This document shows, one piece after another, positions 1 through 64,000 of a stretch of DNA of 64,000 nucleotides. This stretch comes from Xestospongia bergquistia (taxonomy: Eukaryota > Porifera > Demospongiae > Haplosclerida > Petrosiidae). The translations under genes and the position numbers were made by a program. The first letter of the stretch is position 1. Each line of letters opens with the position of its first letter. The stretch is from positions 6,429,821 to 6,493,820 of the forward strand of contig OZ014417.1 of NCBI GenBank assembly GCA_963965975.1, read 5' to 3'. The notes below the pieces were generated by a model. That model saw nothing but the letters and a program-made list of their open reading frames with translations. It was not told the origin of the DNA and searched no databases.

Positions 1-1218
1 AGTTTATTATGTAGTTCAATGTGAAAGTAATAAAGAATAGAGTTCTTAAGTAAATCATGTGTGACAAATGTTTATTTAATTAAATCTAGTATACCTAGAC
101 AATGGATGCCATTAGTAGCAACGACAGTTGATGTGTCACAGGAACAGAAGTATGATCCATTGGTATTAGTACAGTGATGATGACATATGCTTTGTGAACA
201 CTCATTAATGTCTAATGTAACAATAAATATAATAATAAAATCATAATGAATATGTTATTACCTGATAAACAGTCACTACCTGTCCATCCACTGACACATG
301 TACAAGTATTAGGAGCTGAGCATTCCATGTTAGTGCCACATTGAGGATTACAAATTGCTACATATAAATTTTGCGATATTATATTTTGTGTACACCAATA
401 ACAAGTATAACTTACGTAGACAGTTTGGTTTAGGACCATAACCTGAACAACATTGGAGTTGAAGATTGTAAGTCAATGTATATTGTGTCTTAGAGTGAGT
501 TCTATATTATAATGTAAACATGTAGTTGTTTTGTTGTGATATTTACATTTTCTATCTGAGAAAATTAGTGTGTAGCATTTTTTCTGAGTAAATTGTCATA
601 ATTAATAACATACAATGCTTTCTGAGACATTAGTTTAATTTTAAACTTATTTCACAATGACCTTGCATGAAACACCTTAGTTAACATAAAGAAGATATCT
701 TTATCTAATTTTGTATTGTAATATACTACATTTTACATGTAATTAAAACTTTGTAAAAAAAGATGATATAGGGACAGAAATGTCAAAAAGAAGATAGAGA
801 TAAATAAATACATCTTCACAAAATATTTACATATGTGACAAATTAGTACTAAACATAACAAGATTTTAATCAAACTTGATAGTATAAGATTCTAACTAGC
901 ATCATTATTTTCATTATTGTGCTATATGCTTTTATACATTCATACTAAAAGATCATTGATACTGTAGTACTAAACATTGAATTTGCAGTTAACAGTTCTC
1001 CCTTTGAATTAAAAACTTAATGATATATTTGTATAGAGATTATCGCATAGATTTGGGTATTCATTAATACCTGCCTTAAGTTCTTTTCTTTTTTGACACT
1101 GTATGTATTTTATTTTACTTTTTATTTACTATTTATTGCTCCTCATTTGACCAAGTGCATCATATCAACCAACCTTTTGCTAGTTACAGGCTAAAAACTC
1201 TCTCAAAAATATTTTATA

Positions 1219-1258
<40 letters not shown>

Positions 1259-1864
1259 TATATATATATATATATAATATATATATATAATATTGTATAT
1301 ACCATAGATCCAGAAATGTTCTGTGCTGGCTTATAACAACAAAAAAGTACTACTTGATGACTAAGATTATGATAAACTTGACTTAAGCAAGGGTCAAACA
1401 CTAGATAGTCTTAAACAACAAAGAGGAAACTAAATTATAAACATTACAGCATAAATGTATTTAATTTGTCTTGGAGTATTCACTTCCTGTTCCATATTTA
1501 TAGCCACTACACACATAATAAGTTGAATTATTTTATTCTGGCCCATTCCTACATATTGATTATAGACACCACCATATTACATAATATTATATAAGAAGAC
1601 CATGCAAATGTAAAAAGATGTTATGTATCATTCTAACCCATCTCGACAACGATCCCAACCCCAGATGCCACATGAAGTATAAGTAGCACGATATCCAACA
1701 TATGATGTTACAGAAGACACAGATACATAGTGTGAACAAGATGATACAGCATGACAACTGTATATGATAAGACAGATTACAATAATAATATTATAGTGTC
1801 ACAATAAAGCTTACCTATCCATCAAAACTATATACCAAAACAAAAAAGTCAAGAGCCTCACCAT
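1..1864 (-). CDS. Receptor G0, 5' part: signal peptide, EMI, two EGF domains (gene runs off left edge)
   Basis: This is the N-terminal part of a kinase-less transmembrane receptor. Exons by my reading, in coding order: 1864-1815 (signal peptide, starts [10 protein letters not shown]), 1757-1638 (EMI first half, ending near RCRDG), 501-416 (EMI second half with the CCSGYG motif), 357-262 (EGF with six Cys, ending [10 protein letters not shown]) and 211-95 (calcium-binding EGF starting DINEC). Exon sizes 50, 120, 86, 96 and 117 match G2 apart from exon 2. All junctions have GT/AG and keep phase. The fibronectin exons and transmembrane part lie to the left of the window, so integrity of the whole gene cannot be judged. 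No break is seen in the visible exons. An extracellular ligand or matrix-binding role is inferred from the domains. Confidence 0.85.
1220..1290. repeat. AT-dinucleotide microsatellite in G0 intron
   Basis: Runs of alternating t and a fill this stretch, in the long intron between the two EMI exons of G0. The same intron in G1 (about 9898-9942) and G2 (about 20737-20760) carries shorter or longer runs, and G3 has only a stub near 29525. It is a length-variable simple repeat. Confidence 0.95.
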
Positions 1865-5727: not shown

Positions 5728-6949
5728 TTAAATGTTTTTGTGTCCAAACGATTGTATGGTTATAAAATTTTCATTTTTCCTTTTCACAATTCCTAGAGTT
5801 TTGAATAAAATCAAGAGTTCATTTTAGTACATTTACCTTTTTTTGAAGGAAGTGAAGGAGGCCCTTGCTTTTGTGTAGTCATTCCTTTGCCACAATCATT
5901 ATAGTAGGTCATTTCAAAATGTTTTTCATCTGAGGCTCCATTTTTACTATGGTATATATTTAGAGTATGTATCATCATTGTATATGACTGGTTTACCTTG
6001 CTTTCTTAGGAGGGGGAACAGGAGGAATTGGTTTCTTCTTGACATTCTTAAGTGCACTATAATTACATTATTTAAGGACAACATGAGAGTTATTTACTTT
6101 CCTTGTAACAGTAACAGTAGGAGAGTCATTAACACTAGTACTTGTGCTTACACAACTGCTTTCTTTCATTTTCTCTTGACCTAATTTTGCAGATGTTGGT
6201 GCCCTATCATTTAAATGACAATATAGAGCTAATTGTAGTAATTAATATTACTCATAATATTGAGGAACATCCATCATATCATAGTTCATATCATCCATTA
6301 CTTCATAAATCATTTCATCTATTTCTTCATAGATCATCTCAGAAATATCATGTGTATTTCTTTGGAAAAGACACAAAACAATAACTCATATTACATGAAA
6401 AATTTACAAACTTTAGTTTATTTGTAGTTTTTGTAGTGAATGTGATGTCCTTTGGATACTCATAACAATAGTCTTGAGATATTACAACACTAAAAAATTT
6501 TATATTATACAATTATTGTTGATGAATAATATATAATTACCTATTAGGAGAAATACTATTCTTATTACATACAAGATCCAGCTCATTATTAAGTTTTGTT
6601 TCAGTTTGTGAATAGTAATGATACTCATCATCACCTTGCTTTTCACAACCTCTGTATATAAATAATAATGACATCATAAGTATTTGAAATATTATTTATA
6701 TAACAAACCTTGGTTTTAAATGGTGTTTTCTTTTTGATTTAAATTTCTTGAAAATACAAACTGATATTATTATACAACAAATACAAAGAAACATTGACAA
6801 GCTAACAGCAGAACCAATTGCACTGAATAAAACCACATTTATTTGGGTTTTAGTTTTATCTTTTGAAGTTTGATTTGGATTAACACTAACAAGTACAGGA
6901 GTTGTGTCATTTGACAGAAAATAAACTGATGTCACTGTTAACACCTGTC

Positions 6950-7190
6950 CATCAACTATTATTTCTGAAGTATGTTTTATCCAATTTTGTAATATAGTCA
7001 GTCAATAGTTGTGATGTTGTGAAATTGGATATAGCAGATAATCTTCCTCTTATTTGTATTGTACGTTCATTGTCAAATTGTAAAGTGTTATCTGATATAT
7101 AGTCTGAAGTTATTGAACAATAACAAATTTTATTCAACACTTTAATTATGACTTGAGTAATCTCATTGAGTTTACTTTCAGTTTTATTTA
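6950..7190 (-). other. Frameshifting 4-base duplication in G1 membrane-proximal exon
   Basis: The plus strand reads atagtcagtcaatag here and in G3 (26508-26522), but atagtcaatag in G2 (17642). In the coding direction the extra 4 bases send the frame to a stop after NNS, about 50 codons before the transmembrane helix. Confidence 0.85.
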
Positions 7191-9892
7191 GCTATTATAA
7201 TAAGAAATTGTATTATAGTATTTGTCATTGTTATATGACTTACTATCCACAGATAACAGTTATCCAATCCATTGATATAAATAACAATCAGTTTGTTTTC
7301 ATATACTTTAAATTATTTAATACTTGCTATCATGATTATAATAAACTAACAGGAAATAGTATATTTTGAGATTCCAAACCATGTCCTTCTTTAGTTTGTG
7401 CTGACACTGACAAACAATACTTTGAGAGTGGATCCAAATTTCCTACTTTAATTGAAGTATTAAGAGTATGTATTAATAATTTGTTCGTGTCAACCACAAC
7501 ACAATCATCTATTGATTTGGTCAGATTAAAGGAATATCCTGTCACAATTCCTCTCCCCTCTTCTAGTGTTAGTGGCTTTATTTTTATGATTACTTCAGTT
7601 AAAGAAACTCTCAATGCTAGCTTGATGTTTGGAGCCACTCTGGGAACTATATAGAAAGCAAAGCTCTTGTAAATTTGTTATAAGATTATACCTGTTTCAT
7701 GAGTAAAAAATACTTCATGTAAACCTTTTCCTGCACCAGCAATAGTAACTGCATAAACAGTAACTTCATATGGAATATAAGGATCTAAAGAATGTAGGTT
7801 TAATTCATAAAAATAGATTTTAAGGTGTCACTGACTTAATTTTTTTATTAAATAATGTAAATTTTTGGTAGGTTCAACTGAGACAGAATGATTAAATGTT
7901 TCGATTACTGTTAATTGCAAACTCCTAATATTGATGTCATAGTATAAAATAATTCCATTTGGTAGTAATGGTGGCTTCCATGAAACGTTGACTGAATTAT
8001 TTGAAAGTACAGTGACAGTCAATTGATGTATAATATCAGGCTCTAATTGATCATAAAAGAATGTAATGCATAATATTGTAAAAAGTTATTTTAGAAAATC
8101 TATTTATTTATCTGTATTTACATCCATCCATCAATCTAACCTGTCTGATCAGTTGTATTGTAGACATAGTCTGACTGAGGTCCTTCTCCTGCACTAGTTG
8201 TAGATGAGATACTAATTCCTACTTGTTGATAGGGTATCAGTCCCTCCAGAAGATACAGTGTGAACTGACTATCTACAATTCTAGTAGATATCTCACTACC
8301 ATTAGTGTAGTTGATGTACAGAGTATAGTGAGTAATGATACCATTAGGTATCAATGGAGAATTCCATTGAATTAGAAGAGAGAAAGTATCATTAACATTG
8401 ATTGAAACATTAACTGGAGAGTCATCAGGAACTAAATTATAAGATTATGGATGAAAAGATTTTGTTCACACTTTTAATTGTTTACTCACCATCTTCTAAT
8501 GTGGTAAAGGTAATGCAATGACTTTTTCCTATTCCATTAGTTGTCCATTGAGGAGTGACACAGCAGATGTAGGAAGTGAATGGTTTCAGAAATATTACAG
8601 AAACATTTAATTTCTGAGTGATGTCTGATGTTATTATAGTGTTAGTATTTGATATATTACACTCCACTATGTAATCATCAAAGCTTCCATATTGCATGTA
8701 TGGAAATGGAGGATTCCATTTTATTATACAAAACGTACTTGAAAGGCCTGATACAGTCATATTTAGAATAAGTCCTGTGTAAAAATGATTATAAATAGAT
8801 GTGCTACAATGTTTACAGTTAAGAGAGTTTATTATGTAGTTCAATGTGAAAGTAATAAAGAATAGAGTTCTTAAGTAAATCATGTGTGATATCAAATGTT
8901 TATTTAATTAAATCTAGTATACCTAGACAATGAATGCCATTAGTAGCAACGACAGTTGATGTATCACAAGAACAGAAGTATGATCCATTAGTATTAGTAC
9001 AGTTATGATGACATATGCTTTGTGAACACTCATTAATGTCTAATGTAACAATAAATATGATAATAAAATCATAACGAATGTGTTATTACCTGATAAACAG
9101 TCACTACCAGTCCATCCACTGACACATGTACAAGTATTAGGAGCTGAGCATTCCATGTTAGTGCCACATTGGGGATTGCAAATTGCTACATATAAATTTT
9201 GTGATATAATATTTCGTGTACATCAATAACAAGTATAACTTACGTAGACAGTTTGGTTTAGGACCATAACCTGAACAACATTGCAGTTCAAGATTATAAG
9301 TCAATGTATATTGTGTCATAGTGATGATATTTTTATCTAATTTTGTATTGTAATATACTACATTTTACATGTAATTAAAACTTTGTAAATATAAAGATGA
9401 TAGGGATAGAAATGTCAAAAAAAGATAGAGATAAATAAATAAATCTTTAAAAAATCTTTACATAAGTGACAAATTATTACTAAATCTAACAAGATTTTAC
9501 CAAATATGCCCAGTATACGATTCTAACCAGCATCATGCATTATTTTCATTATTGTGCTATATGCTTTTATTCAAACCTTGATACATGCCACTGAAAGATC
9601 ATAGATACTGTAGTATAAAACAGTGAAATTGTAGTTCACAGTTCTCCCCTTGAATTTAAAACTTAATGATACTTTTATATAGAGATTATTGCATAGATTT
9701 GAGTACCTACCTAAAGTTCATTTCTTTTTGACACTGCATGTCATCTCTTATTTTTTTAAATGTTTTTTTACTTGTTTGTATATATAATTGGTACAACCAA
9801 TTTTGTTTTACTTAGCAGATCATGATGACTAACTCTTCAATACATCACGTCAACCAATTTTTTGCTAGTGGCAGGCTGAAAACTGTCCCATA

Positions 9893-9897
<5 letters not shown>

Positions 9898-9942
<45 letters not shown>
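9898..9942. repeat. AT-dinucleotide microsatellite in G1 intron
   Basis: An uninterrupted run of alternating t and a, at the place equivalent to the G0 microsatellite. Confidence 0.95.
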
Positions 9943-9945
<3 letters not shown>

Positions 9946-10496
9946 TATTGTTCTGTGCTGGCTTATAACAACATAAAAGTATTACCTGATGAACTAAAAT
10001 TATGATAAACTTGACTTAAGCAAGAGTCAAACACTAGATACTCTCAAACAACAAAGACGAAACTAAATTATAAACATTACAACATAAATGCATTTAATTT
10101 GCATTGAAGTATTCACTTCCTCTTTCATATGTATAGCCACTACACACATAATAGGTTGTGGTTATTTTTATCTGGCCCATTCCTACATATTGATTATAAA
10201 CACTACCATGTTAAATAATATTATATAAGAAGATCATGCATGCAAATGTACAAAGGTGTTATGTATCATTCTAACCCATCTCGACAACGCCTACGTCCCC
10301 ACCAGCCACATGAGGTGTAAGTAGCAAGATATCCAACATATGATATTACAGAAGACACAGATACATGCTGTGAGCAAGATGATATAGCGTGACAACTGTA
10401 TATGATAACACAGATTACAATAATACAGTGGCACAATAAAACTTACCTATCCATCAAAACTGTATAACAAAACAAGACAATCAAGAACCTCACCAT

Positions 10497-16374: not shown

Positions 16375-19300
16375 TTAAATGTTTTTGTGTCCAAACGATT
16401 GTATGGCTATAAAATTTTCACTTTTCCTTTTCACAATTCCTAGAGTATAGAATAATATCAAGAGTTCGTTTTAGTACATTTACCTTTTTTTTGAAGGAAG
16501 TGAAGGAGGCCCTTGCTTTTGTGTAGTCATTCCTTTGCCACAATCATTATAGTAGGTCATTTCAAAATGTTTTTCATCTGAGGCAACATGTTTACTATGG
16601 TATATATTTAGAGTATGTATCATCATTGTATATGACTGGTTTACCTTGCTTTCTTAGGAGGGGGAACAGGAGGAATTGGTTTCTTCTTGACATTCTTAAG
16701 TGCACTATAATTACATTATCTAAGGACAACATGAGAGTATATTTACTTGCCTTGTAACAGTAACAGTAGGAGAGTTATCAACACTAGTACTTGTACTTAC
16801 ACAACTGCTTTCTTTCAATTTCTCTTGACCTAATTTTGCAGATGTTGGTGCCCTATCATTAAAATGACAATATAGAGCTAATTGTAGTAATTAATATTAC
16901 TCATAATATTGAGGAACATCCATCATATCATAGTTCATATCATCCATTACTTCATAAATCATTTCATCTATTTCTTCATAGATCATCTCAGGCATATTAT
17001 GTGTATTTCTTTGAAAAAGACACAAAACAATTACTCATATTACATGAAAAATTTACAAACTTTAGTTTATTAGTAGTTTTTGTAGTGAATGTGATGTCAC
17101 TTGGATACTCATAACAATAGTCTTGAGATATTACAACACTAAAAAATTTTATATTAAACAATTATTGTTGATGAATAATATATAATTACCTATTAGGAGA
17201 AATACTATTCTTATTACGTACAAGATCTAGCTCATTATTAAATTTTGTTCCAGTTTGTGAATAGTAATGATACTCATCATCACCTTGCTTTTCACAACCT
17301 CTGTATATAGATAATAATGATGTCATAAGTATTTGAAATATTATTTATATAACAAACCTTGGTTTTAAATGGTGTTTTCTTTTTGATTTAAATTTCTTGA
17401 AAATACAAACTGATATTATTATACAACAAATACAAAGAAACAATGACAAGCTAACAGCAGAACCAATTGCACTGAATAAAATCACATTTATTTGGGTTTT
17501 ATTTTTATTTTTTGAAGTTTGATTTGGATTAACACTAACAAGTACTGGAGTTGTGTCATTTGACGGAAAATAAACTGATGTCACTGTTAACACCTGTCCA
17601 TCAACTATTATTTCTGAAGTATGTTTTATCCAATTTTGTAATATAGTCAATAGTTGTGATGTTGTGAAATTAGATATAGCAGATAATCTTGCTCTCATTT
17701 GTATTGTATGTTCATTGTCACATTGTAAAGTGTTATCTGATATATAGTCTGAAGTTATTGAACAATAACAGACTTTATTCAAAGCTCTAATTATGACTTG
17801 AGTTATTTCATTGAGTTTACTTTCAGTTTTATTTAGCTATTATAATAAAAAATTGTATTATAATATTTGTTATTGTTATATGACTTACTATCCACAGATA
17901 ACAGTTATCCAATCCATTGATATACATAACAAACAGTTTGTTGTCATATACTTTAAATTATTTAAAACTTGCTATCATAGCTAAAATAAACTAACCAGGA
18001 ATTAGTATATTTTGAGATTCCAAACCATGTCCTTCTTTAGTTTGTGCTGACACTGACAAACAATATTTTGAGAGTGGATCCAGATTTCCTACTTTAATTG
18101 AAATATTAAGAGTATGTAATAATAATTTGTTCATGTCAACCACAACACAATCATCTATTGATTTGGTCAGTTTAAAGGAATATCCTGTCACAATTCCTCT
18201 CCCCTCTTCTAGTGTTAGTGGCTTTATTTTTATGATTATTTCAGTTGAAGAAACTCTCAATGCTAGCTTGATGTTTGGAGCCACTCTGGGAACTATATAG
18301 AAAGCGAAGCTCTTGTAAATTTGTTATAAGATTATACCTGTTTCATGAGTAAAAAATACTTCATGTAAACCTTTTCCTGCACCAGCAATAGTAACTGCAT
18401 AAACAGTAACTTCATATGGAATATAAGGATCTAAAGAATGTAGGTTTAATTCATAAAAATAGATTTTAAGGTGTCACTAACTTAATTTTTTTATTAAATA
18501 ATGTAAATTTTTAGTAGGTTCAACTGAGACAGAATGATTAAATGTTTCAATTATTGTTAATTGCAAACTCCTAATATTGATGTCATAGTATAAAATAATT
18601 CCATTTGGTAGTAATGGTGGCTCCCATGAAATGTTGACTGAAGTATTTGAAAGTACAGTGACAGTCAATTGATGTATAATATCAGGCTCTAATTGATCAT
18701 AGAAGAATGTAATGCATAATATTGTAAAAAGTTATTTTAGAAAATCTATTTATTTATCTGTATTTACATCCATCCATCAATCTAACCTGTCTGATCAGTT
18801 GTATTGTAGACATAGCCTGACTGAGGTCCTTCTCCTGCACTAGTTGTAGATGAGATACTAATTCCTACTTGTTGATATGGTATCAGTCCCTCCAGAAGAT
18901 ATAGTGTGAACTGACTATCTACAATTCTAGTAGATATCTCACTACCATTAGTGTAGTTGATGTACAGAGTATAGTGAGTAATGATACCATTAGGTATCAA
19001 TGGAGAATTCCATTGAATTAGAAGAGAGAAAGCATCATTAACATTGACTGAAACATTAACTGGAGAGTCATCAGGAACTAAATTATAAGATTATGGATGA
19101 AAAGATTTTGTTCACACTTTTAATTGTTTACTCACCATCTTCTAATGTGGTAAAGGTAATGCAATGACTTTTTCCTATTCCATTAGTTGTCCATTGAGGA
19201 GTAACACAGCAGATGTAGGAAGTGAATGGTTTCAAAAATATTACAGAGACATTTAATTTCTGAGTGGTGTCTGATGTTATTATAGTGTTAGTATTTGATA

Positions 19301-21301
19301 TATTACACTCCACTATGTAACCATCAACGTTTCCATATTGCATGTATTGAAATGGAGGATTCCATTTTATTATACATAACATACTTGAAAGGCCTGAAAT
19401 AGTCATATTTAGAATAGGTCCTGTGTAAAAATGATTATAAATAGATGTGCTACAATGTTTACAGTTAAGAGAGTTTATTATGTAGTTCAATGTGAAAGTA
19501 ATAAAGAATAGATTCTTAAGTAAATCATATGTGATATCAAATGTTTATTTAATTAAATCTAGTATACCTAGACAATGAATGCCATTAGTAGCAAGGACAG
19601 TTGATGTATCACAGGAACAGAAGTATGATCCATTAGTATTAGTACAGTTATGATGACATATGCTTTGTGAACACTCATTAATGTCTAATGTAACAATAAA
19701 TATAATAATAAAATCATAAAGAATGTGTTATTACCTGATAAACAGTCACTACCTGTCCATCCACTGACACATGTACAAGTATTAGGAGCTGAGCATTCCA
19801 TGTTAGCGCCACATTGGGGATTGCAAATTGCTACATATAAATTTTGTGATATAATATTATGTGTACATCAATAACAAATATAACTTACGTAAACAGTTTG
19901 GTTTAGGACCATAACCTGAACAACATTGCAGTTCAAGATTATAAGTCAATGTATATTGTGTCATAGAGTGAGTTCTATATTATAATATAAACATGTAGTT
20001 GTTTTGTTGTGATATTTACATTTTCTATCTGAGAAAATGAGTGTGTAGCATTTATTCTGAATAGATTGTCATAATTAATAACATACAATGCTGTCAGATA
20101 CATTAGTTTAATTTTAAACTCATTCACAATGACCTTGAATCAAAAACCTTAGTTAACATAAAGATGATATTTTTATCTAATTTTGTATTGTAATATACTA
20201 CATTTTACATGTAATTAAAACTTTGTAAATATAAAGATAATAGGGATAGAAATGTCAAAAAAAGATAAAGATAAATAAATAAATCTTTTAAAAATCTTTA
20301 CATAAGTGACAAATTATTACTAAATCTAACAAGATTTTACTCAATATGGCCAGTATACTACTCTAACCAGCATCATGCATTATTTTCATTATTGTGCTAT
20401 ATGCTTTTATTCAAACCTCGATTCATGCCACTAAAAGATCATAGATACTGTAGTATTGAACAGTGAAATTGTAGTTCACAGTTCTCCCCTTGAATTTAAG
20501 ACTTAATGATACTTTTATATAGAGATTATTGCATAGATTTGAGTACCTACCTAAAGCTCTTTTCTTTTTGACACTGCATGTCATCTCTCATTTTTTAAAA
20601 ATGTTTTTACTTGTTTGTATACATAATTGAAACAACCAATTTTATTTTACTTAGCAGATCATGATGACTAACTCCTCAGTACATCACGTCAACCAACCTT
20701 TTGCTAGTGATAGGCTGAAAACTGTCCCAAAAATATTATATATATATATATATATATATATTGTTCTGTGCTGGCTTATAACAACATAAAAGTATTACCT
20801 GATGAACTAAAATTATGATAAACTTGACTTAAGCAAGAGTCAAACACTAAATACTCTCAAACAACAAAGAGGAAAGTAAATTATAAACATTACAACATAA
20901 ATGTATTTAATTTGCATTAGAGTATTCACTTCTTGTTCCATATGTATAGCCACTACACACATAATGGTTATGGTTATTTTTTCTGGCCCATTCCTACATA
21001 TTGATTATAAACACCACCATATTAAATAATATTATATAGGAAGACAATGCATGCAAATGTACAAAGGTGTTATGTATCATTCTAACCCATCTCGACACCT
21101 TCCCCACCAGCCACATGAGGTGTAAGTAGCACGATATCCAACATATGATGTTACAGAAGACACAGATACATGCTGTGAGCAAGATGATACAGCATGACAA
21201 CTGTGTATGATAACACAGATTACAATAATGCAGTGTCATGATAAAACTTACCTATCCATAAAAACTGTATAACAAAACAAAACAATCAAGAGCCTCACCA
21301 T
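16375..21301 (-). CDS. Receptor G2: signal peptide-EMI-EGF-cbEGF-FN3x4-TM with phosphotyrosine/SH3 docking tail
   Basis: Best preserved of the array, about 922 residues. Exons: 21301-21252, 21200-21087, 19974-19889, 19830-19735, 19684-19568, 19420-19136, 19077-18787, 18688-18482, 18430-18338, 18292-17996, 17950-17889, 17836-17358, 17300-17190, 17138-17061, 17008-16901, 16852-16751, 16704-16645, 16594-16484, 16439-16375. All keep phase; the exon at 16751 uses a GC donor. Order: signal peptide; EMI (GRCRDG, CCSGYG); EGF; DINEC calcium-binding EGF; four FN3 domains; membrane-proximal domain with SEA-like look; transmembrane helix near residues 683-712. The tail has no kinase but has Tyr motifs YEEI (Tyr799, Src-family SH2 type), YEVM and YDMM (Tyr807 and 815, PI3K p85 type), YYND, and [10 protein letters not shown] (SH3 type). 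Eight A residues in exon 18, against seven in G1 and G3, change the last ~10 residues. Likely a surface receptor that recruits signalling proteins once a kinase phosphorylates it. Confidence 0.85.
16897..17008 (-). other. G2 docking exon with four tyrosine sites and a stop-or-splice end
   Basis: This exon encodes [17 protein letters not shown] followed by [13 protein letters not shown]. The donor GTAAT overlaps an in-frame TAA: if the intron is kept, the protein stops right after YYE; if spliced, the proline-rich exons are added. The same arrangement exists in G1 and G3. Confidence 0.75.
20737..20760. repeat. AT-dinucleotide microsatellite in G2 intron
   Basis: Short alternating t/a run, equivalent to the G0 and G1 microsatellites. 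Confidence 0.9.
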
Positions 21302-25215: not shown

Positions 25216-28200
25216 TTAAATGTTTTTGTGTCCAAACAATTATATGGCTATAAAATTTTCACTTTTTCTTTTCGCAATTCCTAGAGTATATAATAAAAAC
25301 AAGAGTTCATTTTAGTACATTTACCTTTTTTTGAAGGAAGCGAAGGAGGTCCTTGCTTTTGTGCAGTCATTCCTCTGCCACAATCATTATAGTAGGTCAT
25401 TTCAAAATGTTTTTCATCTGAGGTTCCATGTTAACTATGGTATATATTTACAATATATATCATCATTATACATCTCGTAAAACTCTTTGTAGAAGTTGAT
25501 GAGTTTACCTTGCTTTCTTAGGAGGAAGAACAGGAGGAATTGGTTTCTTCTTGACATTCTTAAGTGCACTATAATTACATTATCTAAGGACAACATGAGA
25601 GTATATTTACTTGCCTTGTAACACTAACAGTAGGAGAGTCATTAACACTAGTACTTGTACTTACACAACTGCTTTCCTTCATTTTCTCTTGACCTAGTTT
25701 TGCAGATGTTGGTGCCCTATCATTTAAATGACAATATAGAGCTAATTGTAGTAATTAATATTACTCGTAATATTGAGGAACATCCATCATATCATAGTTC
25801 ATATCATCCATTACTTCACAAATCATTTCATCTATTTCGTCATAGATCATATCAGGCATATTATGTGTATTTCTTTGGAAAAGACACAAAACAATTACTC
25901 ATATTACATGAAAAATTTACAAACTTTAGTTTATTGGTAGGTTTTGTAGTGAATGTGATGTCACTTGGATACTCATAGCAATAGTCTTGAGATATTACAA
26001 CACTAAAAAATTTTATATTAAACAATTATTGTTGATGAATAATATATAATTACCTATTAGGAGAAATACTATTCTTATTACATACAAGATCCAGCTCATT
26101 ATTAAGTTTTGTTTCAGTTTGTGAATAGTAATGATACTCATCATCACCTTGCTTTTCACAACCTCTGTATATAAATAATAATGACATCATAAGTATTTGA
26201 AATATTATTTATATAACAAACCTTGGTTTTAAATGGTGTTTTCTTTTTGATTTAAATTTCTTGAAAATACAAACTGATATTATTATACAACAAATACAAA
26301 GAAACAATGACAAGCTAACAGCAGAACCAATTGCACTGAATAAAATCACATTTATTTGGGTTTTAGTTTTATCTTTTGAAGTTTGATTTGGATTAACACT
26401 AACAAGTACTGGAGTTGTGTCATTTGGCAGAAAATAAACTGATGTCACTGTTAACACCTGTCCATCAACTATTATTTCTGAAGTATGTTTTATCCAATTT
26501 TGTAATATAGTCAGTCAATAGTTGTGATGTTGTGAAATTAGATATAGCAGATAATCTTGCTCTCATTTGTATTGTATGTTCATTGTCACATTGTAAAGTG
26601 TTATCTGATATATAGTCTGAAGTTATTGAACAATAACAGACTTTATTCAACACTCTAATTATGACTTGAGTAATCTCATTGAGTTTACTTTCAGTTTTAT
26701 TTAGCTATTATAACAAGAAATTGTATTATAATATTTGTCATTGTTATATGACTTACTATCCACAGATAACAGTTATCCAATCCATTCATATATATAACAA
26801 TAAGTTTGTTTTCATATACTTTAAATTATTTAAAACTTACTATCATAATTAAAATAAACTAACCAGGAATTAGTATATTTTGAGATTCCAAACCATGTCC
26901 TTCTTTAGTTTGTGCTGACACTGAAAAACAATATTTTGAGAGTGGATCCAGATTTCCTACTTTAATTGAAATATTAAGAGTATGTAATAATAATTTGTTC
27001 ATGTCAACCACAACACAATCATCTATTGATTTGGTCAGATTAAAGAAATATCCTGTCACAATTCCTCTCCCCTCTTCTAGTGTTAGTGGCTTTATTTTTA
27101 TGATTACTTCAGTTGAAGAAACTCTCAATGCTAGCTTGATGTTTGGAGCCACTCTGGGAACTATATAGAAAGCAAAGCTCTTGTAATTTTGTTATAAGAT
27201 TATACCTGTTTCATGAGTAAAAAATACTTCATGTAAACCTTTTCCTGCACCAGCAATAGTAACTGCATAAACAGTAACTTCATATGGAATATAAGGATCT
27301 AAAGAATGTAGGTTTAATTCATAAAAATAGATTTTAAGGTGTCACTAACTTAATTTTTTTATTAAATAATGTAAATTTTTAGTAGGTTCAACTGAGACAG
27401 AATGATTAAATGTTTCAATTATTGTTAATTGCAAACTCCTAATATTGATGTCATAGTATAAAATAATTCCATTTGGTAGTAATGGAATGTTGACTGAAGT
27501 ATTTGAAAGTACAGTGACAGTCAATTGATGTATAATATCAGGCTCTAATTGATCATAGAAGAATGTAATGCATAATATTGTAAAAAGTTATTTTAGAAAA
27601 TCTATTTATTTATCTGTATTTACATCCATACATCAATCTAACCTGTCTGATCAGTTGTATTGTAGACATAGCCTGACTGAGGTCCTTCTCCTGCACTAGT
27701 TGTAGATGAGATACTAATTCCTACTTGTTGATATGGTATCAGTCCCTCCAGAAGATATAGTGTGAACTGACTATCTACAATTCTAGTAGATATCTCACTA
27801 CCATTAGTGTAGTTGATGTACAGAGTATAGTGAGTAATGATACCATTAGGTATCAATGGAGAATTCCATTGAATTAGAAGAGAGAAAGCATCATTAACAT
27901 TGACTGAAACATTAACTGGAGAGTCATCAGGAACTAAATTATAAGATTATGGATGAAAAGATTTTGTTCACACTTTTAATTGTTTACTCACCATCTTCTA
28001 ATGTGGTAAAGGTAATGCAATGACTTTTTCCTATTCCATTAGTTGTCCATTGAGGAGTAACACAGCAGATGTAGGAAGTGAATGGTTTCAAAAATATTAC
28101 AGAGACATTTAATTTCTGAGTGGTGTCTGATGTTATTATAGTGTTAGTATTTGATATATTACACTCCACTATGTAACCATCAACGTTTCCATATTGCATG

Positions 28201-34500: not shown

Positions 34501-34634
34501 ACATAGTTGGAACAATTTGAAGCTGCAGAACAACTAAATAAAATATATAATAATCATGAAAAACTTTTATTGAACAAGTCTTACTTATTCATCAGAACAT
34601 TTAAAAAAATTAAAAAAATGAAGAGTCTCTCCAT
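31554..34634 (-). CDS. RTK4: EMI-EGF receptor tyrosine kinase with Ser/Thr-rich stalk, one-base frameshift
   Basis: Exons: 34634-34585 (signal peptide, [12 protein letters not shown]), 34533-34423 and 34233-34148 (EMI, CCSGYG), 34074-33979 and 33925-33830 (EGF), 33776-33021 (decayed third EGF, Ser/Thr/Pro stalk, transmembrane helix), 32921-32683, 32632-32540, 32482-32152, 32109-31929, 31884-31742, 31689-31554 (juxtamembrane and kinase). Kinase landmarks: GEFGIVYRG loop, VAVK Lys, [11 protein letters not shown], activation-loop [14 protein letters not shown]. Exon lengths from exon 7 on equal those of RTK5. The third EGF has lost two Cys. A one-base deletion near 33222 in the stalk shifts the frame to a stop before the membrane helix; the frame downstream is otherwise clean. 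Either a young pseudogene, an allele, or a sequence error. If intact, it would phosphorylate tyrosines on itself and partners. Confidence 0.88.
33200..33700 (-). repeat. Ser/Thr/Pro stalk repeats of RTK4
   Basis: The coding strand repeats units of the kind [20 protein letters not shown], some as longer duplicated blocks (33395-33470 against 33545-33620). The RTK5 stalk has far fewer units, so the length varies between paralogues. Rich in likely O-glycosylation sites. Confidence 0.8.
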
Positions 34635-47214: not shown

Positions 47215-48632
47215 CAGGGGCGTACCAGGAAAAATATTGATGGCAGGGCCCCGGAAGTGGGCGTGTCGGTTTATTAATAATTATCATTTTTAAATTTAAT
47301 TAGACTAAAACAACATAATTGTTCTGTTTTTGTCTTTTCCTTCGAATTCTGTAACTACATCATCTAAAGAAATACTACCACTTAGATCAGTCTCAATTGA
47401 TAAAAGAGCAATATCTGTGAGTCTCTTCTCAGTCATTGTTGTTCTTAAATAACTTTTGATTCTTTTTAAGGCGTAAAACGATCGCTCACATTGAGCAGTA
47501 TTTACAGCTAACGTCAATCCTATTTGTAGGATCTTCTTAATTGTTGGGAAAGCTGTTTGAAGTGGAAGAATGTGGTGGTATACGTCGGCAACTGACTTCA
47601 AATCCTTATCCTGTAAAGTTCTTTTTGCCAGCAGCACTCAGTGGCAAGCAGATCAGTGCTCAAACCGTACAAGGACACCATGTGATGTAACTGAGATGGT
47701 TCTAAGAAGTTAGAAGACGACGGATGACAAGCTTGTAAGGATTTCATAAGATCCAAATTGGTTTGAGTGAATCTACGATCCATCTCAGAAAGTATATGAT
47801 CTAAAACAGGAAAGTAAATGTTAGTCTTCAAAGATTCACTGCTGTTGAGAGACTCTCTATGACCAGTACTGGCTGTACATTCAAAAGAAATGAAATCATC
47901 TACCCTATGAGGCCTCCTATGCCGTCTGGGTTCCTGAACTTCAATGTTGTGAATAGTAGCCACCTCTCTAATGTACTTATACGTCTGATCCCAAGTGTCA
48001 TCGTTCCTTAGTGTCTTTAAGGTATCTGATGTGGAGATAACTAAATGAGCAGCTGAGGCCAGATCTATCTCTCTACTTTGGAGCTGATCAGATAATGATT
48101 TGGTGATTCCCATTATACGTAGGAAGATGACTAGACAGGAGATGAACTTAAAACTGTGAATTTGGTGCAGTAAACCAGTAGCCTCAATTGCTTTGGGTTT
48201 ATCATTGCCTTCAGCAATAGAATCAAGTGTGGCTAAGATGGAATCGAAGGTAGTGGCAATAACATCTAGTGACAAGTATCTACATGCCCACCTAGTATCA
48301 GATAGTCTTTGCAATTGTCTGGTTTGTTTATCTGGATGAAGCTGATTTTGCATCTCCAAGTAAATGACATGAGCTTTGCTGGATGACATAAAGACATAGA
48401 GAGATTGTACTAAGGAGAAGAATTCAAAAGCATGAGAGTTGTTTTTGACGCAGTCGACAAGAACTAAATTGAGACAATGGGCATGACAGTGAACATAGAT
48501 AGCTTGTGGAACCAACTCTCTAATGCGCTGCTGAACACCACTACAACAACCATTCATTACTGAAGCACCATCATACCCCTGAGAGACAATCATATTAACA
48601 TCCAAGTTGTAGAGTGTTAAAGTGTCCAAGTG
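47215..48632 (-). mobile_element. hAT-type transposon, 3' half (zinc-finger MYM/hAT transposase)
   Basis: The terminus at 47215 reads CAGGGGCGTACCAGG, a typical hAT end. The minus-strand frame encodes a hAT transposase: IVSQGYDGASVMNGCCSGVQ, YVHCHAHCLNLVLVDC, LSDTRWACRY, and, after a frameshift near 47635, the C-terminal dimerisation region (NTAQCERSFYALKRIKSYLR). The N-terminal zinc finger and first catalytic part are missing, and the left half is replaced by a kinase exon at about 48632. Confidence 0.88.
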
Positions 48633-48761
48633 TCTCTCCTTTTTAAGATAAGACAACAGACTACCTCTAGTCATAAATGGCATTACAATGCAAGGTGCCT
48701 GACCAAGATCAAGACAGACTCCAATGAGAGAAAGTATATTTGAATGATCAAAAAAGGACAT
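47598..48761 (-). pseudogene. Chimeric open frame: RTK kinase N-lobe joined to hAT transposase
   Basis: One uninterrupted 387-codon frame begins with kinase exon sequence (MSFFDHSNILSLIGVCLDLG to [11 protein letters not shown]) and passes without a stop into hAT transposase. The breakpoint is near 48632. The kinase part lacks the P-loop Lys segment in the same exon and everything after the hinge, so no kinase activity is possible. A product could only arise if the RTK pseudogene is transcribed. Confidence 0.85.
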
Positions 48762-49620
48762 CTTTACACTCTCCTTAATAATAGAGTTAACATCTTTATT
48801 TGTGTAAAGACCTTAACATGACATTAATTGAAAAATTTCAAATGAATCTAGAGCTAACGAATGTACTGACTTTGAGTGTTTTATAAGCAACAGGTACTGG
48901 ACCACTATTAATGATGTCACTATCAAGAGTTAGTAATCCACAATAAACTACCTCAAAATCACCTTTAATTATTTCATATCTTGTAAATTAAATATAAATA
49001 TTAACAATACCTTGACCAATAGTCTCTTATAATTGTAACAATGATCATGAAATAATTCGGCATTCAGATAACAATTTCAAATATAAATATGGAACTTCAT
49101 ATGTTTGCTTCACTGTGTACTGTATAATGTTTGGTTGTTGTAGCAACTAACTTTTTGGTATTTAGGGAATACTCATGACATGACATCTCCATTTCTACAA
49201 AATAATGAAGTTATATTGCTTGTAATAGCAATAATCACTATATTGTAGATCACATGAAAACATGAAAACTTGCTTGCATTAAAATTCACTTCTTCATTAC
49301 GTAGCTTGTATTCTATTTCTTTTTTTACACAAACTATTATAATAATCACTGATGATATAGACAGCAATAGAATGACAATTACTCCTGCAATAATTATAAT
49401 TAAATAAGTTGTCAAGTTAACTGAGGTATTTACTGATGTAGGTGAGAATGACAAAAAATATAGTATAATTGAGGATGCTGGAACATATGATATAGTTGAT
49501 GTAGGTGAGGATGATGTAACATGTATTGTTGCCAAAAAACCCAGATGTAGCTAAAGACGATGAAAAATATAGTTCAGTTGATGTAAGTTAAGGATGCTGG
49601 AACATGGAGTGTTGAATAGT
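48633..49620 (-). pseudogene. RTK pseudogene A: stalk, transmembrane and start of kinase
   Basis: Reading on the minus strand: Ser/Thr-rich stalk and transmembrane helix (TTYLIIIIAGVIVILLLSIS, 49535-49330), juxtamembrane segment near 49190-49010 with stops, glycine-loop exon near 48965-48870 in which the VAVK motif is changed to VAYK, and the next kinase exon down to the hAT junction. Upstream EMI and EGF exons are missing; the stalk runs into the duplicated segment at 49,620. Clearly non-functional. Confidence 0.85.
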
Positions 49621-55550: not shown

Positions 55551-58127
55551 ATGGAGAAACTCTTTATTGTTTTGTTTTTTATTAACATTCTGATGAATAA
55601 GTAAGAATTATTCAATGAAATTGTACATAATTATGATCTATTTTATTTAGTTGTTCAGCAATTTCAAATTGTTCCAACCTTGTAAATGTATCTATCACAA
55701 TATCATCTGTTAAATATCGCATCGGTTATGTAAAATGCAAGCACCTTGGTCGCTGTTCAATGTTAGTAACTTAGCATGAGTTTTTATTACTTATATACTG
55801 CTAATGTACCGTTATGATGAAAAGTGGTAGCATTGGTGCAATTTAATAAATTTAGTTACAAGAGGACAGAAGTACTAGTTATTTTCTAAAATAGTGCATG
55901 GAATTATGCAATAATATATGCTATATGTTTTTCAACAGAATAAAAAGTAAAATTCGATATAAGTTAGCTTACAGACAACAATGGCAATGTTGTTCAGGTT
56001 ATGGTCCTTTACCTAACTGTCCACGTAAGTTATTTCTTATTGATTTACTGAACATTACTATTATTATTAAATATATGGTACATCAATTTAGCTATTTGCA
56101 ATTCCACATGTGGTACAAATATGGAATGCTCAGCTCCTAATACTTGTACATGTATTAGTGGTTGGTCAGGCAATGACTGCTTAACACGTATGATGCACGG
56201 ATCATGTGATCAGATAAAATATTTATTTCTCCCAAACATAGCAATTTGCAGTTCACCATGTGGCACTAACAAACAATGCATAGCTCCTGATACTTGTAGA
56301 TGTGTCAGTGGATGGACAAGCAGTGACTGTTTAACAAGTTCAACTACATCCCATGTTCCAGCTTCATCACCTATACCAACTACACCATATGTTCCATCAT
56401 CCTCAGCTACATCAGGATTTTTGTTAACAATAACATACGTTATATCATCATTACCTAAATCAACTATACCATATGTTCTAGCATCTTCAACTACACCATA
56501 TTTTCCATCATTCTCACCTACATCACCACAATCCTCAAAATCAATTAGTGTTGCAACTTACTTGATTATAATCATTGTAGTAGTAATTGTCATACTACTC
56601 CTGTGTATATCATCAATGGCTATTATAATAGTTTGTTTAAAAAGAAGAAAGAGAATCCAAGCTAGGTAATGAAGATAGTGAGTTTTAATATACACATATT
56701 TTAATCTATTTTCAAATATAGTGATTATTGTTATTACAATCAATATAATATCTTATTTTGTAGCATTGAATTGGAAATGACATATCGTGTTAACAGTGAC
56801 AATTCCCTAAATACAAATAACATAACATCAGTTACTGCAGTAGATAACAATTATGCAGTACACAGTGCAAGCAACAAAGCGGTCACTGTCATCCCAAATC
56901 ACACAGATATATATGATGTTTCATCTTTATACTCAAAATGGTTATCTGAGTGCAGAATTATTTCAGGGTCTTTATTAGAATTACAAGAGACTATTGGTCA
57001 AGGTATTGTTAATAGTTATAATTAATTTACAAGATATCAAATGATTTGAAGGTGAATTTGGGATAGTTTATCGAGGATTATTAACTCTTGATATTGACAT
57101 CATTAATAGTGCTCCAATACCTGTTGCTGTTAAAACACTCAAAGGTCAGTAATATTATTAACTCTAAATTCATTTCAAATTACTCAATTAATGGAATTAA
57201 GGTTTTTACACAAATGAAGATGTGAACTCCATTTTGGAAGAGAGTGTGAAGATGGCCTCTTTTGATCATCCAAATATACTTTCTCTCATTGGAGTCTGTC
57301 TTGATCTTGGTCAGGCACCTTGCATTGTAATGCCATTTATGACTAGAGGTAGTCTGTTGTTTTATCTCAAAAAGGAAAGACCAAAGTTAACAATTGGTGA
57401 AACTAGTGATGATGATATTGTACTTGATGCAAGGAAGCAGCTTCTTTCCATGTGTTCACAAGTTGCTAAAGGAATGTTATATCTAGCTGAAAAAAGATTT
57501 GTACACAGAGATCTTGCTGCTAGAAACTGCATGTAAGTTATGTCTAATTCTCTTCAATTCACTCTGTCATTTAGGATTGATGATAATGGTATTATTAAAG
57601 TTGGTGATTTTGGACTCTCAAAAGATGTTTATATGCGTAGCTATTACAGACAATGGAGTAATACTGAATCTGATAAAACTGTTATCAAATTGCCAGTTAA
57701 ATGGATGGCATTAGAAAGCCTTCATGATGGTCTATTCTCTGAGAAGACAGATGTGGTCAGTACATTACATTTTTATTAACTATTATCCAATTACACAGTG
57801 GTCATATGGTGTGTTATGTTGGGAGGTGTTCAGTCTTGGTAAAATTCCCTATCCTGGTCTAGACCCTTCAAGTGTAGTGGAATTACTAGACAGTGGAGGT
57901 AGACTCTTAATTCCAAATAATGCAGCATGTTCAGAGGAAATGTAAGAAACTATATCAATTTCAGCATTATAATTATAATTATTGTTTCCAGATACAAATT
58001 AATGATGTCATGTTGGAAAAGTAATCCAGAAGAAAGACCACCATTTTCTAATTTAGTTCAGTCTGTAGAAGATATTATAAAACCACTAGCTGAATATATG
58101 GATTTCACTGTATGCAGCTTCTCTTAA
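55551..58127 (+). CDS. RTK5: intact EMI-EGF receptor tyrosine kinase
   Basis: Exons 55551-55600, 55651-55761, 55939-56024, 56092-56187, 56242-56665, 56764-57002, 57052-57144, 57202-57532, 57575-57755, 57799-57941, 57992-58127. They sum to 1,890 bases, an open frame of 629 residues with every phase matching. Signal peptide (MEKLFIVLFFINILM); EMI ending [14 protein letters not shown]; two EGF domains (EGF 2 keeps CRCVSGW but has SSD for the usual GSD); short Ser/Thr/Pro stalk; transmembrane helix about 221-247; basic KRRKR stop-transfer; juxtamembrane tyrosines; kinase about 330-620 with Lys363 (VAVK), catalytic Asp470 (HRDLAARN), Asp488 (DFG), paired activation-loop Tyr (MRSYYRQ) and PYPG. Short C-terminal end. 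A plasma-membrane receptor that phosphorylates tyrosines on ligand binding; ligand unknown. It mirrors RTK4 but with one EGF fewer and a shorter stalk. Confidence 0.95.
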
Positions 58128-60480: not shown

Positions 60481-60489
60481 CACATGTAA

Positions 60490-60651
60490 CATTTGATAGG
60501 AAGACTATTAAACTGGAGTTGACTGAGGGTAAAGTTCCTGGTACAATATATGGATTTAGTGATAGTGTGTGGGTGGATAGTGAGACCAATGAATGCTACT
60601 TCACAAATCATTCTCTCATTTATTTGCCTCCATCAAAACCATTTTACTTTT
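60490..60651 (+). pseudogene. Pogo/Tigger-like transposase fragment, copy 2
   Basis: Reads VTFDRKTIKLELTEGKVPGT then IYGFSDSVWVDSETNECYF and LIYLPPSKPF, closely matching 39340-39488 but retaining the FSDS residues missing there. The frame ends at once after PFYF. An isolated DDE_1 scrap. Confidence 0.55.
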
Positions 60652-60745
60652 AATAAATATCATTAATTTTTGTAAATAGAACAGCAGAAGAAACAAGTTA
60701 TTTTTTTTGCTTACCTCTTAACAACTCACACAAGACTCAAACTCT

Positions 60746-61450
60746 TTATAATTTCAACAATGGTCCTGAAATAATTCGGTATTCATATAACCATTTCAAA
60801 TATGAAGATGAAACTTTGTATGTTTGCATGTGGTTTAGCATGTCAGTAAAATCTTTATTGCTGTCACTGTGTACTGTATAATGTTTGGTTGCTGTAGCAA
60901 CTAATGTTAACTTATTGGTATTTAGGGAATACTCATGACATGACATCTCCATTTCTACAAAATAATGAAGTTATATTGTTTGTAATAACAATAATCACTA
61001 TATTGTAGATTACATGAAAATTTATTTGCATTAAAATTCAATTCTTCATTACCTAGCTTGCATTATATTTCTTTTTTTACTCAAACTATTATAATAATCA
61101 TTGATGATATGGACAGGAATAGAATGACAATTACTCCTGCAATAATTATAATTAAATAAGTTGTCAAGTTAACCGAGGTATTTGCTGATGTAGGTGAGAA
61201 TGACAGAAAATATAGTGTAGTTGAGGATGCTGGAACATATGATATAGTTGATGTACGTGAGGATGATGTAATAATAATTGTTGCCAAAAACTCAGATGTA
61301 GCTAAAGATGATGAAAAATATGATACAGTTGATCTAAGTGAGGATACTTGAGCACGGAGTGTAGTTGAACCTGTTAAACAGTCACTGCATGTCTATCCAT
61401 TGACACATGTACAAATATGAGGAGGTGAGCATTCCATGTTAGTACCACAT
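60746..61450 (-). pseudogene. RTK pseudogene B: EGF scrap, stalk, transmembrane and juxtamembrane
   Basis: On the minus strand: EGF remnant with an in-frame stop (61450-61361, NMECSPPHICTCV), stalk and transmembrane helix (61287-61081, LTTYLIIIIAGVIVILFLSI), then a juxtamembrane exon (60952-60746, MEMSCHEYSLNTNKL) that stops at LLKL before the glycine loop. No kinase exons follow. Closely related to pseudogene A at 49.0-49.6 kb. Confidence 0.85.
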
Positions 61451-62545
61451 TGTGAATTGTATATACATATTATATATAGTATAGATACATCTATGTTGGA
61501 TTATAAAAACAAAAAGGTATTACCTGATGAACTAAGATTATTTTGTATATAAAACAGTAAAAACACAAAAATTAATGTTTATTTAAATTTTAAAAGATGA
61601 ATTTAAAACAGTTTCCAATTTACAGCATATATCACCTATGATAAAATTAACTTAAGCAACTTTTAGACCAACAACAGTCAAACACTAGATAGTGGAAACT
61701 AAATCATAAACATTACAACATAAATGTATTAATTTTGCATTGGAGTATTCACTTCCTGTTCGTTATGAATAACCACTACATGCATAACAGCTGGTAGATA
61801 TTTTTTCCTGCCCCATTCCTAACATTGACTTTAAATATCTAGTCATAAAAGTACAGGTGTTTGGAGCTATACATTCCTTATTAGTGTCATATTGAGTATC
61901 ACAAGTTGCTGTGTTTAGTTCATATGAAATATGCAGTAAATGTAAAGTTCGAGTAATATATATCCATGTATACATGGAAAACATCATCATTATTATAATA
62001 TAAGGTCTGTACAACATTACTATAGTAACAACATCCAGCATATATCACTATAGCAACATTATTAAATACTTAATTCTCATTTAAAAATGAATGAAAATCA
62101 GAAGTTTTCTAAATGATAATTTATACCACTTAGTTATAATGAAGCAGGTTATTAATAGCCACACAGTTTCAGTAACACTAATATTTTCAATAACTGTGTA
62201 TCAAAGCTGTACTGGTTTCATCCTTCACATTTTATATTTTATATGAGAGCCATATCAGCAGGTTCCTTACATTCCTTAGTTATATTGTTGTTGAAATTTG
62301 AAAAATGCTCAAAATATCTTAAAATTAATAATTATTATTAGTCTTGATTCATAGGTTAATTAATAAACACTAATAATTTCAGTAACTATAGTAATGTCAG
62401 TAATGGTGTATCAAATCATGGACTGGTTTTATTCTTTATAGTTCATATTTACATAGTAGGCACATCAGCAGGTTCCATGTGTCTCTTAGATATATTGTTG
62501 CAAATGTTTTAAAAAATTAAAGTTAATTAAAATTAATCAGAATTA
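61451..62545. other. RTK6 3' flank, with array-like and mirrored sequence
   Basis: 61,500-61,800 resembles the long EMI intron of the G genes (CACTTCCTGTTC, CACTACATGCATAA). 61,980-62,530 is the reverse complement of 58,140-58,700. Contains the minus-strand EGF scrap at 61836-61915. Confidence 0.6.
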
Positions 62546-64000
62546 CTAAGAGAAGCTACATACAGTGAAATCCATATATTTAGCTAGTGGTTTTATCATG
62601 TCTTCTATAGACTGAACTAAATCAGAAAATGGTGGTCTCTCCTCTGGATTACTTTTCCAACAGGACATCATTAATTTGTATCTGGAGACAATAATTATAA
62701 TTATAATGTTGAAATTGATATCTAGTTTCTTACATTTCCTCTGAACATGCTGCATTATTTGGAATTAAGAGTCTACCTCCACTGTCCAGTAATTGAACTA
62801 CACTCAAAAAGTCTAGACCTGGATAGGGAATTTTACCAAGACTGAACACCTCCCAACATAACACACCATATGACCACTGTGTAATTGGATAAACGTTTTA
62901 AAAAATATAATTAATCCACTGACCACATCTGTCTTCTCAGAGAATAGACCATCATGAAGGCTTTCTAATGCCATCCATTTAACTGGCAATTTGATAACAG
63001 TTTTATCAGATTCAGTATTACTCCATTGTCTGTAATAGCTACGCATATAAAGATCTTTTGAGAGCCCAAAGTCACCAACTTTAATAATACCATTATCATC
63101 AATCCTAAATGACTGACTGAATTGAGTAGAGTTAGAAAAAACTTACATGCAGTTTCTAGCAGCAAGATCTCTATGTACAAATCTTTTTTCAGCTAGATAT
63201 GACATTCCCTTAGCAACTTGTAAACACATGGAAAGAAGCTGTTTCCTTGCATTGAGTACAATATCATTATCGCTGGTTTCAATAATTGTTAAATTTGGTC
63301 TCTCCTTTTTGAGATAAGACAACAGACTACCTCTAGTCATAAATGGCATTACAATGTAAGGTGCCTGACCAAGGTCAAGACAGACTCCAATGAGAGAAAG
63401 TATATTTGGATGATCAAAAGAGGACATTTTCGCACTCTCTTCCATAATAGAGTTCACATCTTCATTTGTGTAAAGACCTTAATTGCATTAATTGAGGATT
63501 TTGAATTAAATTTAGAGTTAATGATATTACTGACCTTTGAGAGTTTTAACAGCAACAGGTACTGGAGCACTATTAATGATGTCAATATCAAGAGTTAATA
63601 ATCCTCGATAAACTATCCCAAATTCACCTTCAAATCATTTGATATCTTGTAAACTAAATATAACTATTAACAATACCTTGACCAATAGTCTCTTGTAATT
63701 CTAATAAAGAGCCTGAAATAATTCTGCACTCAGATAACCATTTTGAATATGAAGATGAAACATCATATATAGATGTGTGATTTAGTATGTCAGTGACATT
63801 TTTGTTGCTGTCACTGTGTATTGCATAATTGTTGTCTACTGCAGTAACTAGCGTTAAGTTATTTGTAGTTAGGGAATTCTCACTGTTAACATGATAAGTC
63901 ATTTCCAATTCGATGCTACAAAATAAGAAATAATAGTGCTCTTAATAACAATGATCACTATATAGGAAATTACATGAAAATTCATACATTTAAAACTCAT
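62546..64000 (-). CDS. RTK6: kinase half of a third receptor tyrosine kinase (runs off right edge)
   Basis: Exons 63915-63677 (juxtamembrane, MEMTYHVNSENS), 63627-63535 (GEFGIVYRG to VAVK), 63477-63147 (alpha-C to HRDLAARN), 63104-62924 (DFG, activation loop), 62876-62734, 62681-62546. Sizes 239, 93, 331, 181, 143 and 136 equal those of RTK5 and all phases hold, with no stop. All catalytic landmarks are present. The activation loop begins KDLYMRSYY, where RTK4 and RTK5 have KDVYMRSYY. The transmembrane, stalk, EGF and EMI exons must lie just beyond 64,000. A membrane receptor kinase of the same family. Confidence 0.9.

Follow-up and report, generated by a model that had tools for sequence, protein, structure and literature searches.

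A 64,000-bp window of the sponge Xestospongia bergquistia (C7:6429821-6493820, where C7 is contig OZ014417.1; a slice of a 146.46-Mb genome in 21 contigs) carries two types of gene for single-pass receptors, one without a kinase (G) and one with a tyrosine kinase (R). It is probable that the window is a slice of a birth-and-death cluster on one chromosome in which the kinase-less G type is ancestral, and that the R genes are chimeras, formed when a phase-1 cassette of stalk, transmembrane (TM) segment and kinase took a G-type head once and was then duplicated. That a kinase cassette captured a G-type head accounts for the observed pattern better than a co-located pair, in which R phosphorylates G, as had been proposed in a sequence-only reading of this DNA.

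Two receptor types with one front

G-type genes encode a signal peptide, two EMI-like exons, an EGF domain, a calcium-binding EGF domain (cbEGF), four FN3 domains, a TM segment and a tail with tyrosines and prolines, in that order. R-type genes have the first four exons of the G type, followed by a second EGF, a Ser/Thr stalk, a TM segment and a tyrosine kinase. Complete models of G2 and R5 were built by hand with a splice-aware reading, and signal peptides and TM segments were judged by eye. Exon lengths, phases and sequence are common to the two fronts, as the sequence-only reading had held: exons 1 to 4 measure 50/114/86/96 bases in G2 and 50/111/86/96 in R5 and R4, with end phases 2/2/1/1, and the other fronts are similar (G0, 50/120/86/96; G3, 53/120/86/96; R6 and R7, 50/108/86/96). 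In the front protein of R5 and G2, 64 of 114 aligned residues are identical, the EGF exons of the two types share 79-83% DNA identity, and a CCSGYG motif precedes the EGF. The split behind this front into an FN3 group and a kinase group was likewise borne out: G2 has four FN3 domains by Pfam (3.4e-31), and R5 matched the tyrosine-kinase model (PF07714, 281 bits against a cut-off of 23.1; 7.8e-84).

The EMI domain named in that reading did not hold up as a confirmed Pfam domain. None of six spliced fronts matched Pfam EMI (PF07546) at E<=10, and "EMI-like" is therefore the safer label; a scan of the genome with the EMI profile also gave no match, but it reads exon by exon and its controls gave no signal either. 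EGF_PEAR1L matched all six spliced fronts (best 2.9e-6); the scores listed, 27.5 for member 1 and 36.0 for the whole of R5, are below its cut-off of 37.5. It was the best Pfam EGF model for both G2 and R5, again below cut-off. A profile of the fronts gave weak EGF matches only against solved structures. The AlphaFold model of G2 exon 12 had a mean predicted local distance difference test score of 38.4 and was unusable for a fold search.

When the whole genome was searched with a 66-residue composite of the two EMI-like exons, 79 matches were obtained at E<=1. All 79 are on C7: most lie between 5.66 and 6.55 Mb, others form a second group at 3.47-4.01 Mb, and a single weak one is at 1.97 Mb. 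About 52 were second-half (CCSGYG-type) exons. Using the G-type TM exon and tail as the query, 121 matches were obtained genome-wide. At least 36 TM-exon matches covered at least 150 residues at 61% identity or more, all 36 on C7, and four weak ones (<=29% identity) were on C5 and C12. Both sets of counts are lower bounds. The single common locus of the sequence-only reading was right in that all the EMI-like exon matches lie on C7, but it extends far past 64 kb, to a cluster of about 0.9 Mb plus the second group. The broken copies of that reading were upheld, and birth-and-death evolution is supported. The number of EGF domains varies among G genes, with one EGF and one cbEGF in G0-G3, four in locus L027 and 12 in L028. 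At C7:5889622-5897067 numerous EGF matches come after an EMI-like exon, in open frames some 2400 residues long, and a G-type TM exon lies at 5887247; this looks like a G gene in which one EGF exon is giant.

Front trees were built from the fetched fronts that fitted the search patterns, and G3 is outside them because its CCSGYG is altered. In a tree of 29 fronts, aligned over 276 bases, all six R fronts fell into one clade (97.1/100), which was nested among G fronts when the tree was rooted on the 3.5-4.0 Mb group. The sister of this clade (95.7/97) was a gene at C7:5.846 Mb, 0.6 Mb away, which is of the G type, with cbEGF, FN3, the G-type TM exon and tail frames. A second tree of 24, from which five fronts without a pattern-detected exon 2 had been dropped, gave the same picture. 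A clade of R fronts with the local G0-G2 was rejected (approximately unbiased [AU] test, p = 1.2e-5), while a constraint holding all G fronts together imposes an unrooted split already present in the best tree and is uninformative. R fronts were 53-63% identical to their neighbours G0 and G2 and 66-73% identical to the 5.846-Mb front, which by raw identity was the nearest G front for four of the six.

The kinase of the R genes is under purifying selection, with ratios of nonsynonymous to synonymous change (dN/dS) of 0.25-0.27 for the kinase exons in all three pairs among R5, R6 and R7. For the same genes the fronts gave 0.56, 0.55 and 0.97 and the stalk exons 0.61-1.09; G0 against G2 gave 0.52 overall. 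In the first EGF, dN/dS was 0.22 (0.03-1.10) in the R set and 0.27 in the G set. This pattern fits a fast head on a constrained kinase. Positive selection on the first half of the EMI-like region was considered and rejected, as the omega of 1.1 in six R fronts was not significant (95% bootstrap 0.53-2.33; G set 0.70).

Relatives of the R kinase and the heads upstream of them

Among solved chains the R5 kinase is nearest to EGFR, UFO/Axl and MET. It has catalytic kinase motifs in an open frame with a signal peptide and one TM segment, and R6 and R7 are alike in this; all three are predicted to be active kinases that bind a ligand. Among the matches listed, R5-like kinases were found at seven cluster sites (C7 6.337-6.510 Mb), at C7:6941k, and on C6, C4, C2 and C10, with a more distant match on C1. 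An unrooted tree of 22 kinase domains separated five cluster kinases from the rest (99.5/100), the nearest being C7:6941k; the fragment at 48.6-49.6 kb of the window and a degenerate copy at 6.510 Mb were left out because their main kinase exon is incomplete.

Different heads lie upstream of these related kinases. Front-exon peptides matched in all seven larger cluster loci (L009-L012 and L027-L029, 3-42 matches each) and had no match at E<=0.1 in any of the 14 off-cluster kinase loci (L013-L026). In seven of these 14, same-strand reading frames that precede the kinase were scanned. Ig exons were found upstream of the C4 kinase (Ig_3, 4.6e-9) and, weakly, of the C6 kinase; SRCR (9.1e-21) and Ig (1.4e-7) at C2:7391k; FN3 (5.2e-6) with weak Ig at C2:3173k; and a Frizzled-like exon in two C10 copies (0.001, below the Pfam cut-off). 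No domain was recognised by Pfam in the upstream frames of C7:6941k. The R5 stalk-TM exon matched six off-cluster stalk-TM exons (3e-35 to 1e-5), E-values that are flattering for the stalk part because low-complexity filtering was off, and the G2 TM exon, used as a control, did not match them. The stalk exons of the C6, C4 and C10 genes were read as starting in phase 1.

If such heads are taken from existing receptors, each should also occur on receptors without the cassette, and four head classes were examined in this way; the SRCR and Ig/FN3 heads lay outside this set. The EMI-like head is also present on the G-type genes (at least 36, by the TM exon). The Cys-rich head of C7:6941k, which Pfam does not recognise, has three further copies on C15 (C15:1449000-1458800). 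Judged from reading frames, two of these continue into a TM segment and a short tail, like pseudoreceptors, and one precedes a kinase whose best solved relatives are activin/TGF-beta type II receptors (activin receptor type-2A, 1.3e-35). Because Pfam is silent on the head itself, calling it activin-receptor-like rests on this C15 neighbour kinase. No TM exon of the C15 type was found between head and stalk at C7:6941k. A relative of the C6 Ig head at C2:2.078 Mb (L051:260-3132) is followed by a TM segment and a tyrosine-rich frame, with no R5 kinase exon within the fetched 5.9 kb, and is apparently a kinase-less Ig receptor with a tyrosine-rich tail frame; another relative is present at C6:1.785 Mb, where a back end was not found. 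The Frizzled-like head was confined to the C10 kinase array (11 full-length and two partial copies). Three of the four classes thus occur on receptors without the tyrosine-kinase cassette, and the proposition that every cassette head has a cassette-free relative fails on the fourth.

It is possible, though we put it forward tentatively and at less than even chance, that the stalk-TM-kinase cassette is a general head-capturing back end, whose phase-1 stalk exon repeatedly took existing receptor heads. These would have been the EMI-like/EGF head of the kinase-less docking family, the Ig head of a tyrosine-tailed kinase-less receptor, and the Cys-rich head that elsewhere stands before an activin-type-II-like Ser/Thr kinase.

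Gene models and other features of the window

Table 1. Receptor genes, exons and relics in the window (positions count from the first base of the window)
Feature	Position	Strand	Remarks
G0, 5' part, exons 1-5	1..1864	-	remaining exons left of the window; 924-aa open frame when completed
G1, broken	5771..10496	-	5' part of exon 3 lost; exon 10 end -1 base; exon 12 +4; exon 18 -1
G2, 19 exons, 922 aa, open	16418..21301	-	signal, EMI-like, EGF, cbEGF, four FN3, juxtamembrane domain, TM, Tyr/Pro tail
G2 front exon 1 (signal)	21252..21301	-	50 bases
G2 front exon 2 (EMI-like, first half)	21087..21200	-	114 bases
G2 front exon 3 (EMI-like, second half, CCSGYG)	19889..19974	-	86 bases
G2 front exon 4 (EGF)	19735..19830	-	96 bases
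G2 exon 12	17358..17836	-	conserved juxtamembrane region and TM
G2 cytoplasmic tail, exons 13-19	16418..17300	-	13 tyrosines, PxxP motifs
G3, broken	25259..30106	-	exon 12 +4 and exon 18 -1, both as in G1; CYSGYG instead of CCSGYG
R4	31554..34634	-	same front, three EGF (third with lost cysteines), long stalk, TM, kinase
R fragment, stalk/TM and first kinase part	48632..49612	-	kinase exon broken off beside a hAT-like element
R5, 11 exons, 629 aa, open	55551..58127	+	signal, EMI-like, two EGF, stalk, TM, juxtamembrane, tyrosine kinase
R5 front exons 1-4	55551..56187	+	50/111/86/96 bases
R5 exon 5	56242..56665	+	second EGF, Ser/Thr stalk and TM in one exon
R5 kinase exons 7-11	57052..58127	+	
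R gene relic	60746..61465	-	EGF, stalk, TM, juxtamembrane; no kinase matched
R6, 3' part, open frame	62546..64000	-	R6 front right of the window

The frames of G0, G2, R5, R6 and R7 are open, with 11 or 19 exons kept open with their splice sites, and those of G1, G3 and R4 are frameshifted, the R4 lesion lying in the stalk exon (33021-33776). R7, whose front is to the right of the window, has an open frame that ends one residue past the end of R5. The lesions, mirrored copies and variable stalks described in the sequence-only reading were all found: indels are present in G1 and G3, R4 and R5 are oppositely oriented at 81-91% DNA identity by block, and the stalk-bearing exon measures 424 bases in R5 and R6, 499 in R7 and 756 in R4. 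No front was found for the R fragment at 48.6 kb. Exon 16 of G2 (16751-16852, minus strand) has a GC donor (GC-AG intron), as do G0 and G3, while G1 has GA there.

A remnant of a hAT-type transposase (47308-48812, minus strand; Dimer_Tnp_hAT, 1.4e-7) was apparently inserted in the kinase exon of an R copy. Pieces of a Copia-like long terminal repeat retrotransposon (Pol_BBD, gag_pre-integrs and RVT_2, in several frames) are located at 44662-47274 (plus strand), and weak gag and aspartyl-protease matches at 41435-42692 (plus strand) represent a second retroelement. EGF-like exons on the plus strand (15396-15479 and 24020-24103, with related copies near 4418-4745) repeat with the G units, between the minus-strand G genes; they may belong to a different EGF gene family or be relics.

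Proposed origin of the R genes and its meaning

In the proposed origin, the signal, EMI-like and EGF exons at the 5' end of a G-type gene would have been joined in frame ahead of a pre-existing cassette encoding stalk, TM segment, juxtamembrane region and tyrosine kinase, and after this single capture the chimera would have multiplied in direct and inverted copies. The cassette would be able to accept heads because its stalk exon starts in phase 1, in keeping with the EGF and FN3 exons here. Fast-evolving heads of one kind would serve both G and R in binding; G would need phosphorylation by some kinase, as Draper does by Src42A, to recruit SH2/SH3 partners, whereas R would carry its own kinase. 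Both the direction of capture and the role in recognition are what we infer from the arrangement. Several points weigh against this account. The exon chains and the R and G models were read from genomic sequence alone, and the off-cluster joins of head and kinase rest on position and strand and, on C10, also on repetition. In the R genes the last EGF and the stalk share an exon, and the joint is therefore not a simple exon-to-exon splice. The trees hold 24-29 of some 52 fronts over 276 aligned bases, and the nesting of the R fronts depends on rooting with the 3.5-4.0 Mb group. R4 and R5 are slightly nearer to a front at 6.397 Mb (67 and 72%), aligned without exon 2, than to the 5.846-Mb front (66 and 67%).

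The pairing proposal, in which R and G co-assemble through their common front and R phosphorylates the G tail in trans, draws on the open-framed genes of both types side by side, on the well-kept core of the first EGF, and on the G2 tail, with its 13 tyrosines, YEEI, two YxxM and four PxxP matches. The docking tail of Draper, phosphorylated by the separate kinase Src42A on which it depends (PMC8092387), is a precedent. However, neighbouring R and G fronts are 53-63% identical and are not sisters, a grouping that the AU test rejects. A common promoter was also rejected, since the 400 bases upstream of four R and seven G genes (291 for the 5.846-Mb gene; R3 left out) showed no similarity between the types. 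Special conservation of tail tyrosines was not significant (20/34 kept against 205/435 other residues, p = 0.21), and two YxxM are not unusual for the composition of the tail, being reached in 538 of 5000 shuffled G2 tails (four PxxP in 59 of 5000). G genes also outnumber R genes and reach parts of C7 without an R kinase among the matches listed. The pairing is not supported so far, and we regard it as improbable. An unlikely but somewhat more credible alternative is that R and G heads bind the same class of ligand and act separately, as competitors or decoys, and that broken copies of the G3 type might give soluble heads. The +4 frameshift in exon 12 of G3 does stop the frame before the TM segment and leaves the ectodomain frame open, and one Cys-rich head is combined in turn with a short tail, a Ser/Thr kinase and the tyrosine-kinase cassette; but broken genes may simply be dead, and G1 has additionally lost part of exon 3.

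The reverse direction, in which the front arose with the kinase and was borrowed by the G type, is compatible with an unrooted tree taken alone. It conflicts with the nesting of the rooted R fronts, with the number of second-half EMI-like matches (about 52) and G-type TM exons (at least 36) on C7 against seven cluster kinases, and with the absence of front-exon matches (E<=0.1) from all 14 off-cluster kinase loci, and we give it almost no weight. It is also very unlikely that the gene models are accidents of duplicated DNA in a dying repeat family without function. Such a family would account for the broken copies (G1, G3, R4, R8 and the fragment at 48.6 kb), but not for five genes that keep their exons open with splice sites, nor for a kinase dN/dS of about 0.26. 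A single head capture by the kinase cassette is the origin that we favour.

CED-1, Draper and MEGF10 resemble the receptors described here in being single-pass proteins with an N-terminal Cys-rich EMI-like region bearing CCxGY, then EGF (here EGF_PEAR1L below cut-off), and with tail tyrosines. They differ in that the present fronts have no Pfam EMI match, four FN3 domains are present, one subfamily has its own tyrosine kinase, and neither NPxY nor an immunoreceptor tyrosine-based activation motif was found in the G2 tail, the sole tail scanned. The paired KIR/LILR receptors have similar ectodomains and different signalling tails in one cluster. Here one exon series stands before different tails in one cluster, at 53-63% identity between R and G0/G2 fronts, and the R partner carries the kinase itself. 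The alr complex of Hydractinia, to which the sequence-only reading likened the locus, is a cluster of fast-evolving single-pass receptors with broken copies; its domains differ, and the possible likeness here comes from one assembly.

In Geodia cydonium, a sponge receptor tyrosine kinase with Ig-like domains has been described (Schacke 1994, as cited in PMC12018476). Compared by description, the C4 and, weakly, the C6 members resemble it in their upstream Ig-like exons, whereas the R genes have an EMI-like/EGF head. GSAM is a kinase-less Geodia relative that shares the Ig domains. For other sponges, counts in Halichondria panicea include putative cytokine receptors that carry tyrosine kinase, Ig and FN3 domains, together with more than 600 SRCR genes (PMC8242945), and 158 of 296 SRCR genes are in tandem arrays in Amphimedon (PMC10855680). 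Among the open-access titles and abstract openings listed, none described EMI-like/EGF receptor kinases or the R kinase family.

A new receptor kinase is commonly held to originate when a kinase gains a new extracellular part, and the steps are usually erased. In this genome a close relative of the head donor, the kinase family that received the head and the phase of the cassette's intron are all visible together, and several unrelated heads precede back ends related to that of the R kinases. That extracellular domains are shuffled among holozoan receptor kinases as a general process has already been proposed (PMC8662651); what is added here is a probable head capture that can be dissected, with its head-donor relative and cassette phase, and one kinase family behind many heads in a single genome. 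If the cassette does capture heads generally, one ligand could be read by kinase-less, Ser/Thr-kinase and tyrosine-kinase receptors in the same animal. The cluster offers a testable natural experiment in which recognition would have been rewired to tyrosine signalling in an early-branching animal.

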